Shown here piece after piece: positions 4,884-37,992 of a stretch of DNA of 41,288 nt. Every line of letters begins with the position of its first letter. Position 1 is the first letter of the stretch. The notes under the pieces are model-generated. The model was not told the DNA's origin and did not search any database. It worked only from the letters and a program-made list of their open reading frames with translations. Source of the stretch: Candidatus Treponema equifaecale (GTDB taxonomy: Bacteria; Spirochaetota; Spirochaetia; Treponematales; Treponemataceae); NCBI GenBank assembly GCA_018064905.1, contig JAGHUJ010000029.1, positions 1 through 41,288 of the forward strand, given 5' to 3'. The position numbers and the translations under genes were made by a program.

Positions 4884-5270
4884 ATGTATCAGGTTAGAGT
4901 TGAAACATCTTTTGCCGCAGCTCATTTTCTCAGGGATTATCACGGTAAGTGTGAGAATCTTCATGGACACAACTACAAGGTTTATGTTCATGTGCAGGGA
5001 AACAAATTGGATGAGGGCGGAATGCTTTTGGACTTCACTATTCTAAAAAAGGCGCTCAAGTCTGTATGTGAGAAAATTGATCACACAAATTTGAATGATC
5101 TGGCATTTTTTGATCAGAATCCCAGTGCAGAAAGAATTGCAACTTACATCTACAATCAGCTGGTGGAGCAGATTCCTTCGCTAAAAAAACAGAATGAAGA
5201 AGATGCTCACATTCATGCTGTGGATGTTTTTGAAACCGATACCAACAGAGCAAGATATTTGCCGGAATAA
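4884..5270 (+). CDS. queD: 6-pyruvoyl-tetrahydropterin / 6-carboxytetrahydropterin synthase family
   Basis: SFAAAHFLRDYHGKCENLHGHNYKV (zinc His motif and catalytic Cys), IDHTNLND. Confidence 0.88.
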   Translation: MYQVRVETSFAAAHFLRDYHGKCENLHGHNYKVYVHVQGNKLDEGGMLLDFTILKKALKSVCEKIDHTNLNDLAFFDQNPSAERIATYIYNQLVEQIPSLKKQNEEDAHIHAVDVFETDTNRARYLPE

Positions 5271-5379: not shown

Positions 5380-6981
5380 ATGAAAAAAATTTCAGTTCTT
5401 GATTCAACTTTAAGAGACGGTTCTCAGGGCGAGGGCATCAGTTACTCGGTTCAGGACAAAATCAATATTGTAAAAGCCCTGGATGAACTTGGTGTAACCT
5501 ATATTGAGGCTGGAAATCCAGGTTCAAATCCAAAGGACATGGAATTTTTTGCAGAGGCAAAGAAGCTGAAATTACAGCATTCAAAACTGGTGGCTTTTGG
5601 TTCAACTCGTCGCAAGGGAATTAAATGTGCTGAGGACGCAAACCTCCAGAGCCTGCTTGCCGCTGAAACTGATGTTGTCTGCATTTTTGGTAAGACCTGG
5701 GATTTTCAGGTAACGGAAATCATTCACGCAACTTTGGAAGAAAATCTTGAAATGATTAGAGAAACTGTTGCCTTCCTGGTTGAAAACAAAAAAGAAGTAA
5801 TTTTTGATGCTGAGCATTTCTTTACAGGTTATGCTGCAAATTCTGAATATGCGCTGAAATGTCTAGGTGCTGCTGTTGAAGGTGGTGCAAGTTGTCTGTG
5901 TCTTTGTGAGACTAAAGGTGGTGAAATGCCGATGCAGTGCTATGAGGCAACAAAAACTGTTGTGGAACGATTTGCCAAGAATGGGGAAGTTGTTGTTGGT
6001 GTTCATACACATAATGATACTGGTCTTGCTGTGGCAAATTCGCTGATGGCTGTGGAAGCCGGTGCTGCACATGTTCAGGGGGTTCTGCTTGGTTTTGGAG
6101 AACGTACCGGAAATGCAAATCTTAGCACAATCATTGCCGACCTTCAGCTTAAAATGGACTGCAACTGTATTCCTGAAGAAAATATGGTTAAGCTCACCCC
6201 AATCTGTAAGCGCGTGGCTGAGATCACAAATATTGCGCTGGATGCAGGTATGCCTTATGTTGGTGGAAGTGCTTTTGCTCACAAGGCTGGAATGCACATT
6301 GATGCTGTAATTAAGAATCCTTTTGCATACGAACACATCACTCCTGAGACTGTTGGAAACGAACGCGTGTTCCTTATGAGTGAAGTCGCTGGAAAGAGCA
6401 TGATTGTGGAGAAGGTTCAGAAATTTGACTCTTCGTTGAACAAAAATTCCCCTGTGGTTGCTGAAATCGTAAAAAAAGTTAAGGAACTTGAACATATCGG
6501 TTATCAGTTTGAGGGTGCCGATGCAAGCTTTGAAATTCTTGTTCGCAAGGCTATCGGTAAATATCAGCCATTCTTCAACCTGCATTATTACAAGACCAGC
6601 GGTGAATTTCCTAGATTTGCTGATGATCAGAGCGCATTTGCACAGTTTAAGATCGATGTTGATGGCAAGGTTGTTGTTTCCGCTGGTGACGGTGATGGTC
6701 CAGTAAATGCATTGGACGTCGCAATCAGAAATGCATTGGAGCAGTTCTATCCAAATGTGGCCCAGATTCATCTTACAGACTACAAAGTTCGTGTTCTTGA
6801 TGGAAAAGGGGCCACTGCAAGCCGTGTTCGCGTTCTCATTGAATCCAGCGATGGCGAATCTCATTGGGCTACTATGGGTGTTTCAAGTGACATTATCGAA
6901 GCTTCTTATCTTGCTTTGGTTGATTCTTTTGAATACAAACTTATCAAGGATCTGGAAAGAAAATTCGGAAAGCTGATCTAA
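5380..6981 (+). CDS. cimA: Citramalate synthase (isopropylmalate synthase family)
   Basis: MKKISVLDSTLRDGSQGEGISYSVQDK..., HTHNDTGLAVANS, C-terminal LeuA allosteric-like domain; ATG at 5380 preferred to the track start 5305 because GGAG lies just upstream and the first 25 aa translate repeat DNA. Confidence 0.88.
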   Translation: MKKISVLDSTLRDGSQGEGISYSVQDKINIVKALDELGVTYIEAGNPGSNPKDMEFFAEAKKLKLQHSKLVAFGSTRRKGIKCAEDANLQSLLAAETDVVCIFGKTWDFQVTEIIHATLEENLEMIRETVAFLVENKKEVIFDAEHFFTGYAANSEYALKCLGAAVEGGASCLCLCETKGGEMPMQCYEATKTVVERFAKNGEVVVGVHTHNDTGLAVANSLMAVEAGAAHVQGVLLGFGERTGNANLSTIIADLQLKMDCNCIPEENMVKLTPICKRVAEITNIALDAGMPYVGGSAFAHKAGMHIDAVIKNPFAYEHITPETVGNERVFLMSEVAGKSMIVEKVQKFDSSLNKNSPVVAEIVKKVKELEHIGYQFEGADASFEILVRKAIGKYQPFFNLHYYKTSGEFPRFADDQSAFAQFKIDVDGKVVVSAGDGDGPVNALDVAIRNALEQFYPNVAQIHLTDYKVRVLDGKGATASRVRVLIESSDGESHWATMGVSSDIIEASYLALVDSFEYKLIKDLERKFGKLI

Positions 6982-28574: not shown

Positions 28575-31292
28575 ATGAAAAAGAATATTTTTATATTTAT
28601 TGCATTGCTCATTGTTACAGCCTGTTCAAATAATTTCAGTGAAAATAAAACAAATGCAGAAATTTCAGGAAAAGCCTATATAACAATAGATTTTTCTTCT
28701 GCAAGAACCGTTTTACCAGAATTTGAACTTACAAAGCTTTCAAACATTGTGCTGAAAGGCTCTCGTAACGGTGCAAGTCAGGAAATTTTAGCAAGTTTTG
28801 ATACTGTTTCTTCTATAAATAATGTCGGAATTGATGTTGGAAACTGGGATTTTACTTTAATCGCGAAACAAGGGAACACAAGTTTTTCTGGAACACAGAC
28901 AAAAAAGATTGAAGTTGGTGAAAATTCGTTGAGTTTTACTTTGAGTGTTGTTGATTTTGGTGATGTGGTTGATGTTGGAAGTGTGAAAGTGTCGTTGGAA
29001 TTTCCTGCTGATGCTGGTGTTGTCTGTGTTAAGGCTGGATTGTTTGATGTTTCTGGAAAAAATCAGGTCAGTGGTTTTGCTTTAGAATCTGTTGCGATTG
29101 GTGGTGCTAAAGTTGTCTATGAAAAAGAAAATGTTCCAGTCGGCCAGTATCTTTTAAAATTTGATTTTTATGGAGACGCAGACTGCAAGGCATATATAAA
29201 CACTTATAAAGAAATCGTGAAAGTTGCCAGCGAATGTATAAGTACAGCAGAACGAAGTGTTGATAACTTGAATGAAGTCTATCAAATTTCGGTGAAACTG
29301 AATGGTGGTGAACTGGTTGACGGAGTAACTATTCCTGCAGCGTACACAAAAAATTCTGAAAAAATTTTTTTGCCGGATGTATTTTGCGTAAAAAAGAAGA
29401 ATTATTATTTTGATGGATTTTACAAGACTTTTGATTTTGCTGGAGATAAAATTACACAAATAATATCCACAACAGAAAGCCTGACATTATATGCAAAATG
29501 GGTGCGTGGATATTACATTTCTGCAAATGAGATTAATTCTCTCAATTTAAAATCTGAAAAAGAAGAAATTACCGTTAAAGTGTATGGCGAACTTACTAAA
29601 TCTCAATTCACATCCCTTGCAGAGAAAATAAAGAGTTTATCTATACTTGTAAATCTTGATTTGGAAAATACAACAGGATTAACAGAAATACCTGCTTTTG
29701 ATTTTGCATTCCATTCTAGTAGTTCTTGCACTTCGTTAAAAACTATCAAACTCCCTGAAGGAGTTAAGAATATTGGTTGGGGGGCATTCTATAACTGTAC
29801 TTCACTGAAAACGATAGAAATACCAAAGGAAGTCACGACTATAGGCGAGGATACCTTCTATGGTTGCACTTCACTGACAACAGTAGAAATACCAGAAGGA
29901 GTAACGAGTATAGGCGGTTCTGCATTCAGTGGTTGCAGTTCATTGACAGCGGTAAAAATACCAGAAGGTGTCACAAGTATAGGCAGTTGTGCATTTTATG
30001 GATGCAGTTCACTGACAGCGGTAAAAATACCAGAAGGAGTCACAAGCATAGACGATCGTGTGTTTTATTACTGCAGTTCACTGACAGCGGTAGAAATACC
30101 AGAAGGAGTCACAAGCATAGGTAATTATGCATTTTATTACTGTAGTTCACTGACAGCGGTAAAAATACCAGAAGGTGTCACAAGCATAGGTGATTCTGTA
30201 TTCCGTGACTGCAGTTCACTGACAGCAGTAAAAATACCAGAAGGAGTCACAAGCATAGGTGATTCTGTATTCCGTGACTGCAGTTCCCTGACAACAGTTA
30301 AAATTCCATCAACTGTAACTACAATTGATTCAGCAGCATTTTATCAGTGTGACAGCATAAAGAATGTTTATTACGAAGGAACAGCATCACAATGGTGTAA
30401 TATAGATTTTGATGATGGTATGAATTTTTTATCTGGCATTAATTTTTATTGTGAAGATGAATTGTTGGAAAATGTCGTTTTGGATTCAACAGTTACGAAA
30501 ATCCCACGATACGCATTTTACAAAAATGAAAATATTAAAACTGTAGAGATATCAGAAGGTGTGTTAAGTATAAGTGATCACGCATTTGCTGGATGTAGAG
30601 CATTGACAATCATAAAAATACCTACGAGTGTCACAAGCATAGGTGATTCTGTATTCCGTGACTGTAGTTCACTGACAGCAGTAAAAATACCAGAAGGAGT
30701 TACGAGTATAGGTGAAAACGCTTTTGAGAATTGCACTTCACTGACAACAGTTGAAATAACAGAAGGTGTAACTACCATAGGTAAAGAAGCATTTTACTAT
30801 TGCACTTCGTTAAATGAGATTCATATATCTCAGTCTGTAAAAAAAATAGGAATTTCTGCATTCTACGGCTATGGTGTGAAGAATAGAAAAGTCTTTTATT
30901 CAGGTACTGCTTCTGATTGGTGTAAGATAGATTTCTCTGGTGGATCAGGGAATCCATTGTGCTATGGTGGTACAGATGGATTGTTTATAAATGGAGAGCC
31001 TGTTCGGTCTGTTGTTTTGAATTCAACAGTTACAACGATTCCAAGTTTTGCTTTCCAAAATTGTTCACAGTTAGAAACAGTTGTGATTTCTGAAAGTGTT
31101 TCACAGATTGGTTATTACGCATTCAATAATTGTCAGTCTCTGATATCGGCTATATTTCCTGATAATTCAATATGGCTTATTACCGATAAATCTGATTTTA
31201 CAAATGGAGCTAGGATTGATGTTTCAATTCCTGCACAGAATGCAAAATGTCTTACAGGAACGGATATCTATAGATATTTATATCGACAATGA
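28575..31292 (+). CDS. BspA/TpLRR-type leucine-rich-repeat lipoprotein
   Basis: ATG 28575, lipobox LLIVTAC; 23-aa LRR_5 units SLTAVKIPEGVTSIGDSVFRDCS; InlB-type repeat ending SLTLYAKW. Confidence 0.92.
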   Translation: MKKNIFIFIALLIVTACSNNFSENKTNAEISGKAYITIDFSSARTVLPEFELTKLSNIVLKGSRNGASQEILASFDTVSSINNVGIDVGNWDFTLIAKQGNTSFSGTQTKKIEVGENSLSFTLSVVDFGDVVDVGSVKVSLEFPADAGVVCVKAGLFDVSGKNQVSGFALESVAIGGAKVVYEKENVPVGQYLLKFDFYGDADCKAYINTYKEIVKVASECISTAERSVDNLNEVYQISVKLNGGELVDGVTIPAAYTKNSEKIFLPDVFCVKKKNYYFDGFYKTFDFAGDKITQIISTTESLTLYAKWVRGYYISANEINSLNLKSEKEEITVKVYGELTKSQFTSLAEKIKSLSILVNLDLENTTGLTEIPAFDFAFHSSSSCTSLKTIKLPEGVKNIGWGAFYNCTSLKTIEIPKEVTTIGEDTFYGCTSLTTVEIPEGVTSIGGSAFSGCSSLTAVKIPEGVTSIGSCAFYGCSSLTAVKIPEGVTSIDDRVFYYCSSLTAVEIPEGVTSIGNYAFYYCSSLTAVKIPEGVTSIGDSVFRDCSSLTAVKIPEGVTSIGDSVFRDCSSLTTVKIPSTVTTIDSAAFYQCDSIKNVYYEGTASQWCNIDFDDGMNFLSGINFYCEDELLENVVLDSTVTKIPRYAFYKNENIKTVEISEGVLSISDHAFAGCRALTIIKIPTSVTSIGDSVFRDCSSLTAVKIPEGVTSIGENAFENCTSLTTVEITEGVTTIGKEAFYYCTSLNEIHISQSVKKIGISAFYGYGVKNRKVFYSGTASDWCKIDFSGGSGNPLCYGGTDGLFINGEPVRSVVLNSTVTTIPSFAFQNCSQLETVVISESVSQIGYYAFNNCQSLISAIFPDNSIWLITDKSDFTNGARIDVSIPAQNAKCLTGTDIYRYLYRQ
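29745..30305 (+). repeat. Tandem 69-bp repeat tract encoding LRRs
   Basis: Nine consecutive 23-aa units; units at 30145-30213 and 30214-30282 differ at two positions. Confidence 0.85.
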
Positions 31293-36419: not shown

Positions 36420-37862
36420 CTATCCCTTCACTAAATCAGGATTTGTCCTATAAAGATTTGTCCTGCCGGATGTTATTTTTATCAAATAGCCCTGGGATTC
36501 AAGATTTTGCAGAATTTTCTCGCGTAGGTATGATGAATTGGAAAGTCCAAGAAAATTCGCGATTTCAGCTACTTTGCGGGACTTTTCAAAACAGTATGCC
36601 AGAACTTTTTCGTCGTGTTCGGTTGCATTTTTTGCTGGAATGAAATCAATCTTTAAAAGTGCTTTACCTCCAGAAACTCCTTCTGTAAAAGTCAAATCTG
36701 GCAAAACCAGCGTGAAATGATCTGATGTGGAATAAATGAATGGCTTGTGATTTGAATCAGCTTTTTCATAATCCTGGCTTATTTTGTCAAATCCAGTTCC
36801 AGCAGCTTCCATTACATTGCATTTCACTAGAATTCCGCAGATTAGTTCATTTCGCCTTTTAGAGATTACATTGGAAAGATCATAAGTTTTGCCTATTTTT
36901 TCCCCCTGATAGAAACTTCCTGGAGATGAAATTTCAAGACGGTCTTTGAACATATCCAGTTGAATCTGTGTTCCGTCAAGGAAATAATCTCGGTGGGCTA
37001 TGGCATTTATAAATCCTTCAAAAAGTGCGCGTTCTGGATAAGAATCAATATTTTCCCTTCCATCAGCATGTTTAATGAATGAATGGTTCATTCGCTGTTT
37101 GACAAATTCCATCATGAATGCCAGTGAATCCGTAAGGCATCCTGTAAATCTGTTCACAGTAACAACCCGTTCACTGCCTTTGTTAAAACCTGAGAATACA
37201 GAGCACATTACTTCTGTCTTCGAGTCCTTGCAACCATCGGCAAATAAAAACGCACCATTTTTAAGTTTTTTGTCTTTATTGAAAAATCCCAGTGAAGCTA
37301 GTGCTTTATCAGAAAGGTCTTTGCCTTCATTATGCTCTGAATAGAACTGAAGGAGTTTTGAAAAATCAGCACGGTTGTAGTTCAAATCTGAGTCTGTTAC
37401 ATCATATTGGGCTTTTTGACTCTGTATGCTCATCGAAATTATTTCTTCGTAGGTGGCACCGTTTGTAAAACCTTCTCGACGCATATAGATGGAGGGAACA
37501 TTGTTGAATTTTAAAATTATGGGTTTAACAGGAGATTCTTTAACATCCACCTGAATTACAAACAGTTCCCGTTGGTTATTTTCATATCGGATGAATGAAA
37601 TGTGATAGAGTGGGCGAGGGAAGATATGTTCATTTATCTGGTTATTGAAGAAGTTGCGCTCTTTATCTGCTCCGTTACGGTCAAATCCGATGAGTTTGTT
37701 TGTTCCATCTTCAACACCAATGAAGAATTTTCCACCAGATGCATTGGAAAATCCTGCAATTGTCTTAAGCCAGCCTTCAACATTTGTTCTGTCCAGCTTA
37801 AGCTTTGTTTCCATATTTACTGTTTCAATCGCAGAAATATCGATAAGTTCATCCAAAAGCAT
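36420..37862 (-). CDS. AlbA_2/Schlafen-like ATP-binding protein with C-terminal winged-helix (putative transcriptional regulator)
   Basis: ETVNMETKLKLDRTNVEGWLKTIAGFSNASGGKFFIGVEDGTNKLIGFD; ERALFEGFINAIAHRDYF...RLEISSPGSF; C-terminal wHTH KVAEIANFLGLSNSSYLREKILQNLESQGYL; ATG 37862 with GAGG upstream. Confidence 0.88.
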   Translation of the reverse strand: MLLDELIDISAIETVNMETKLKLDRTNVEGWLKTIAGFSNASGGKFFIGVEDGTNKLIGFDRNGADKERNFFNNQINEHIFPRPLYHISFIRYENNQRELFVIQVDVKESPVKPIILKFNNVPSIYMRREGFTNGATYEEIISMSIQSQKAQYDVTDSDLNYNRADFSKLLQFYSEHNEGKDLSDKALASLGFFNKDKKLKNGAFLFADGCKDSKTEVMCSVFSGFNKGSERVVTVNRFTGCLTDSLAFMMEFVKQRMNHSFIKHADGRENIDSYPERALFEGFINAIAHRDYFLDGTQIQLDMFKDRLEISSPGSFYQGEKIGKTYDLSNVISKRRNELICGILVKCNVMEAAGTGFDKISQDYEKADSNHKPFIYSTSDHFTLVLPDLTFTEGVSGGKALLKIDFIPAKNATEHDEKVLAYCFEKSRKVAEIANFLGLSNSSYLREKILQNLESQGYLIKITSGRTNLYRTNPDLVKG

Positions 37863-37873
37863 ATTCACCTCGT

Positions 37874-37895
37874 ATAATTGAAGTACTTCAATTAT
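37874..37895. promoter_or_regulatory. Perfect 22-bp palindrome ATAATTGAAGTACTTCAATTAT
   Basis: Directly upstream of the GAGG ribosome-binding site of the AlbA_2 gene. Confidence 0.8.
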
Positions 37896-37961
37896 ACTTC
37901 AAATGAACTTCAAATACAACTTCAAATAAACTTCAAACACAACTTCAAATGAACTTCAAAT
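37885..37961. repeat. Seven-copy ACTTCAA(A/T) iteron array, 11/12-bp period
   Basis: ACTTCAA at 37885, 37896, 37907, 37919, 37930, 37942, 37953. Confidence 0.95.
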
Positions 37962-37992
37962 AGGTTGTTGAAGTAGTTCAAGAATCTGAATC

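Follow-up and report, generated by a model that had tools for sequence, protein, structure and literature searches.

Why does a solitary Schlafen-type gene carry seven identical heptamers across its own promoter? The window, as we call the whole 41,288-nt stretch of Candidatus Treponema equifaecale DNA analysed here, holds such a run directly upstream of a gene that is flanked by a sulP-type transporter gene on one side and a probable lipoprotein gene on the other (Table 1). An earlier note on this DNA had proposed cooperative autoregulation through the array, with repeat-number phase variation as an alternative. We found that the array is inherited together with the gene, that it stands in a fixed register with the promoter, that its motif covaries with the recognition helix of the encoded protein, and that this protein joins a Schlafen-type domain to a winged helix. 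We consider it probable that this solitary bacterial Schlafen gene is autorepressed, with the array as its operator and the protein's own winged helix as the reader.

Table 1. Features of the Schlafen-type gene and its upstream region, in window coordinates
Feature	Position	Strand	Basis
Solitary Schlafen-type gene, 480 aa, ATG start	36420..37862	-	ORF and domain search
C-terminal winged helix, residues 407-480, likely iteron reader	36423..36644	-	AlphaFold model, structure search
HATPase_c_4 domain, residues 297-387	36702..36974	-	domain search, 69.7 bits
SLFN_AlbA_2 domain, residues 14-131	37470..37823	-	domain search, alignment, structure
Shine-Dalgarno GAGGTG	37866..37871	-	read from sequence
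Perfect 26-bp palindrome GTATAATTGAAGT/ACTTCAATTATAC	37872..37897	.	palindrome measured; start site (about 37884) inferred from -10
Iteron array, seven TTGAAGT (ACTTCAA on +)	37885..37959	-	read from sequence, unbiased detector, TRF
-10 hexamer TATAAT, linker between first two iterons	37891..37896	-	read from sequence
-35 hexamer TTGTAT, weak (3/6), 17 bp from -10	37914..37919	-	register of orthologs' TTGAC[AT]
Degenerate distal copy of palindrome core, TTGAAGTAGTTCAA	37968..37981	.	read from sequence

All seven ACTTCAA copies are exact and start where the earlier note had placed them, at 37885, 37896, 37907, 37919, 37930, 37942 and 37953, with spacings of 11, 11, 12, 11, 12 and 11 bp. TRF described the array with periods of 11 (6.9 copies) and 23 (3.4 copies), and a motif-free tandem detector returned a 7-copy chain; 100 dinucleotide shuffles of this region never gave more than 3. 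It is the sole array with at least three iterons in its own genome (2.8 Mb), and an Rfam scan of the window gave no match. Elsewhere in the window, at 29784-30808, 69-bp tandem repeats (7.6 and 2 copies) lie within a gene whose product is a surface protein of the leucine-rich-repeat type. The palindrome at the promoter end is perfect, as had been claimed, but is 26 bp long rather than 22, and it contains an inverted iteron at 37878-37884; the degenerate distal core and the minus-strand TATAAT are likewise as described. We place the gene start at the ATG at 37862, behind GAGGTG, and not at the GTG that opens the reading frame. Because of this ATG and its Shine-Dalgarno sequence, the palindrome, which had been said to cover the -10 and the start, covers the likely transcription start, where it falls on the expected site, and not the start codon. 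The proposal that every copy lies on one face of the helix holds for neighbours but fails for the array as a whole: at offsets of 0, 11, 22, 34, 45, 57 and 68, and compared with 10.5 bp per turn, the sites drift by ~5 bp (~170 degrees) from the first copy to the last, so each is aligned with its near neighbours only.

Comparison of upstream regions, which had been set beforehand as a refutation test, showed that orthologs have arrays too. At least three TTGAAGT iterons (3-10 matches) lie within 200 bp of the start in 23 of 24 non-redundant orthologs, and unbiased chains of at least four copies were found in 20 of the 24; in one ortholog (L018) the array is almost absent. These orthologs (58-75% identity) come from Treponema, Lachnospiraceae, Flexilinea and Coriobacteriaceae, and thus from four phyla. 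A shared neighbouring gene was sought across 14 ortholog loci and none was found, so the array and its gene travel together from one unrelated context to another. The ortholog on the Butyrivibrio proteoclasticus plasmid pCY360 has seven iterons with 11/12 spacing; this copy (L157 / L178, 54086-56512) adjoins a tyrosine recombinase gene. The exact pattern of three TTGAAGT iterons gave no match in the genomes of L009, L015 and L018 because the arrays there are degenerate, and these arrays were found protein-first. A search of IMG/VR with the family alignment returned no relative, and phage records contained distant relatives only, plus a 62% identical fragment truncated by the start of its contig. 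Replication iterons were ruled out as an explanation of the array by the absence of an initiator gene or origin, the varied chromosomal contexts and the lack of a common neighbour.

The iterons are interleaved with the promoter. By strict criteria, the best sigma-70 promoter stands in a fixed iteron register in 19 of 24 orthologs, with the -35 in one linker and the -10 two linkers on, whereas shuffling the non-iteron bases (200 trials) gave this register in 0.4 orthologs on average and in 3 at most. In the layout of the TTGAAGT clade, the -35 (TTGAC[AT] in most members) begins 6 nt past an iteron start, the 17-bp spacer reads TTGAAG-N5-TTGAAG, and the -10 follows directly; the promoter register is missing from L014, L015, L018 and L019. 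The window's -35, which a generic promoter scan of the window misses, was located by this register, and the candidate operator in the window lies across the regulator's own core promoter, as it does by register in the 19 orthologs. Steps of 11 bp occur 63 times and steps of 12 bp 29 times across the TTGAAGT clade, and it is in the 12-bp intervals that the -35 sits, with TTGAC[AT] in 16 of the 29. The 11/12 alternation is therefore better accounted for by promoter hexamers occupying the linkers, 12 and 11 summing to 23 bp. Strict helical phasing in this clade was ruled out by spacing arithmetic, the mean being about 11.2-11.3 bp.

Paralogs at ~30% identity, from Treponema and Lachnospiraceae, have arrays of their own in 10 of 10 cases (L037-L042, L109, L110, L115 and L116), with 4-10 copies of a different word: GGCAATGT (or G[CA]AATGT), and AATGAT in one member, L110. 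Among 23 other homologs examined, three of them with an unsettled start codon, there was no chain above 3 copies. In the tree, the TTGAAGT and GGCAATGT groups each form a clade (100/100), and homologs that have no array fall between the two. Each word has its own recognition helix: S[DN]S[ST]Y[FL]R for TTGAAGT, YKSRS[RQ]FL for GGCAATGT and YNSRTSFL for AATGAT. Such covariation fits direct reading of the array by the encoded protein and is not predicted if a host factor reads it. The iterons of the GGCAATGT clade are spaced by 10 or 11 bp, with a mean of about 10.5, and these arrays are thus truly helically phased; in most members the -10 is found 11 nt away from where the last iteron starts, and the -35 overlaps the next-to-last iteron. 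In a further clade, at 38% identity, the upstream regions (L033-L035) have inverted TGAAGT words and no long direct array.

Pfam matches above cut-off in the window protein were SLFN_AlbA_2 (57.4 bits, against a curated cut-off of 25.3) and HATPase_c_4 alone, with no receiver domain and no recombinase domain; an NCBIfam search gave no match, and in PADLOC pAgo-type models matched weakly and partially only. The AlphaFold model (mean pLDDT 84) is good per domain, and with a pTM of 0.55 we restricted its reading to single domains. Visible in it is a winged helix, and structure comparison matches this domain to ArsR/MarR-type repressors (Z about 9, rmsd about 2 A). The N-terminal domain compares with the SAMD9 tRNase domain at Z 10.8 and with Schlafens at Z about 9.5. 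Residues E13 and E18 are invariant in 23 aligned homologs and align to the Schlafen E-x4-E, whose carboxylates are two of the three residues that the RNase activity of SLFN13 requires (PMC5862951). The third position holds E51 in the window protein and D51 in the 38%-identity clade; in the GGCAATGT clade it is S or G. The closest solved whole-protein structure, DIP2311 of Corynebacterium diphtheriae (PDB 3lmm; Z 22.7, residues 2-392), has its domains placed differently from the model, with a high rmsd, and is a structural-genomics entry whose title names no function. The AlbA_2 domain and winged helix named by the earlier note were both recovered, in an account left incomplete by the HATPase_c_4 domain that sits between them. 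Rather than as a plain regulator, the protein is better seen as a solitary bacterial Schlafen and candidate RNase that carries a repressor domain of its own. In the accessible part of a survey of bacterial Schlafens, the domain order (Schlafen/AlbA_2, HATPase-like, wHTH) is the same as in the window protein, and no mention is made of arrays; the window gene differs in being solitary, away from BREX loci, and in having a promoter-embedded iteron array. Winged-helix Schlafen RNases are described as widespread and linked to phage defence in what is accessible of a recent survey, which there assigns no role to the winged helix.

Autorepression, in the model that we favour, comprises direct binding, repression, RNase activity and a trigger, all of which we infer. 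The C-terminal winged helix would read one 7-bp iteron per monomer, and adjacent monomers would line up in head-to-tail order at intervals of 11-12 bp, the promoter end carrying an inverted pair. The -35 and -10 lie in linkers two units apart (23 bp) and the spacer contains one iteron, so that RNA polymerase should be shut out once the array is occupied. This expectation makes negative autoregulation the simplest reading; even one or two bound subunits over the promoter stretch should suffice. Expression would then be set by the protein's own concentration, with quick release if the protein were titrated or its conformation changed, possibly via HATPase_c_4 and possibly on phage infection, and release would supply more Schlafen-type RNase. 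Tight autorepression makes sense for a probable RNase. Counting against this model are the weak -35 of the window, the nearly array-less L018, the four orthologs that lack the promoter register, the orphan arrays without an intact gene, and the 11/12 alternation, as compared with the strict spacing of PhoP-type cooperativity. The cooperative autoregulation originally suggested is thus partly supported: the ortholog arrays favour its core, and the strict phasing and the plain regulator have to be given up.

A pattern-first search of 274 Treponemataceae genomes for three exact TTGAAGT iterons returned 12 genomes. In eight of these an array precedes an ortholog, with the open frame shortened in G111, and one of the eight, G198, has a second array that precedes the remnant of an ortholog. 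The same gene-less array is shared by two related genomes among the 12, in G079 an array abuts a gene reading as thyX, and one match looks like a repeat within coding sequence. The gene-less array of G079 (L130 / L156, G079:C67) has a -35 and -10 in register and lies directly before the thyX-like gene, which may have captured the array promoter. Gene-less GGCAATGT arrays were also seen (L062, L063 and L067, in regions L091-L093, and L090). In L092 and L093 the orphan lies near tRNA-Met, and the gene behind it begins MAD(I)KELEEQIAKLPIGYITEKVI and has inverted GGTGTTAAA words of its own; in L091 DNA methyltransferase-like genes come after the array.

Winged helices are a common fold, and the array could be read by an unrelated host regulator with the Schlafen gene as one of its targets. 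We regard this as unlikely, as one word accompanies the same protein clade across four phyla, the other accompanies a paralog in the same genus, both occur in one genome (G198), the window's own genome has no other array of three, and a change of word goes with a change in the protein's own helix. That array and gene travel alone would also suit a small mobile unit composed of the two, with the array as its recombination or attachment site and promoter overlap secondary. In L006 array and gene are bracketed by a perfect 20-bp direct repeat, GCACTTCCTTTTTCATGAAA (4887-4906 and about 6450-6469), hinting that the unit was inserted; gene-less arrays lie at island borders near tRNA-Met, and the pCY360 copy has a tyrosine recombinase as its neighbour. 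However, the 20-bp repeat is found in one ortholog only, the protein contains no recombinase domain, and an empty-site search for the window and L006 found sulP/transporter relatives in which homology stops at the gene end, fixing no insertion boundary. An attachment site would also give no reason for the register between promoter and iterons seen in 19 of 24 orthologs, and we judge it very unlikely.

Changes in repeat number could instead make the array a phase-variation switch. Compared with L032 and L012, L014 is missing ~44 bp, the -10 included; compared with L026 and L027, extra 23-bp units are present in L153. Both changes, seen between related genomes or alleles only, adjoin either a broken gene or a promoter element that has been lost, which decay would predict; L153 (G198:C125:1-400) is an allele of the L027 locus in which the extra 23-bp units are double iterons and the gene is internally deleted. 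The linkers differ from one another, unlike slippage-prone simple repeats, and the -35/-10 spacing is unaffected by distal copy number. Copy-number variation between close relatives is probably drift or decay and slippage, and phase variation as a design, the alternative raised in the earlier note, is not supported and appears very unlikely. The array might also be the DNA arm of a toxin restraint, in which the RNase is held inactive as an oligomer and transcription control is part of the output. The nuclease-type and DNA-reading domains share one polypeptide and up to 10 iterons are present, beyond what occlusion needs, but the precise promoter register makes transcription at least one output, and there is little probability in this reading. 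There is slightly more, and still very little, in a one-gene toxin whose antitoxin is in the DNA, the RNase being stored inactive on its own promoter array so that the gene is repressed and the enzyme restrained; if this were true, a phage signal stripping the protein off would free active RNase and derepress the gene in one step, and orphan arrays elsewhere would tune the threshold.

Autorepression of the Schlafen gene by its own product, the reading that we prefer, would be of a known kind, that of an autorepressor on direct repeats. Operators of the PhoP/PhoB type have tandem 7-bp motifs with a 4-bp spacer, and PhoP of M. tuberculosis binds such 7 + 4 bp repeats through head-to-tail winged helices, with cooperativity to three and four motifs (PMC4832192). 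The window system shares with these the direct 7-bp repeats every 11 bp and the winged helix, along with, as proposed here, cooperativity beyond the dimer, and its array differs in tolerating 12-bp steps and in its position inside the core promoter; the window protein differs in having no receiver domain and an ArsR/MarR-like winged helix. An OmpR/PhoB-type operator was ruled out by the 29 12-bp steps, against a strict 4-bp spacer, and by the missing receiver domain. The likeness to PhoP is, by our analysis, one of operation and not of family. NanR on its (GGTATA)3 operator is, in the accessible part of its description, a repressor on a short direct-repeat run, as proposed here, although it belongs to another family and uses three contiguous 6-bp repeats to control a metabolic operon (PMC8012715). 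Autorepressed type II toxin-antitoxin operons, as far as the accessible part of the source goes, place a potentially harmful protein under autorepression of its own promoter (PMC4803016), a likeness that we propose for the window system, in which nuclease-type and DNA-binding domains lie in one protein and there is no separate antitoxin gene. The literature within reach, which covered a minority of the subscription journals, yielded no description of arrays at AlbA_2/Schlafen genes, nor of such use by solitary bacterial Schlafens of repeats woven into the promoter with clade-specific words.

A gene and its probable operator travelling together as one unit across phyla make this a clean case, and the two clades, with different words and the same logic, provide a ready specificity code. 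Named and sequenced sources exist in Treponema ruminis RU1 and Butyrivibrio proteoclasticus B316. For the winged helix of these bacterial Schlafens we propose a role, that of reading an iteron array interleaved with the protein's own promoter, and this answer would be cheaply testable.
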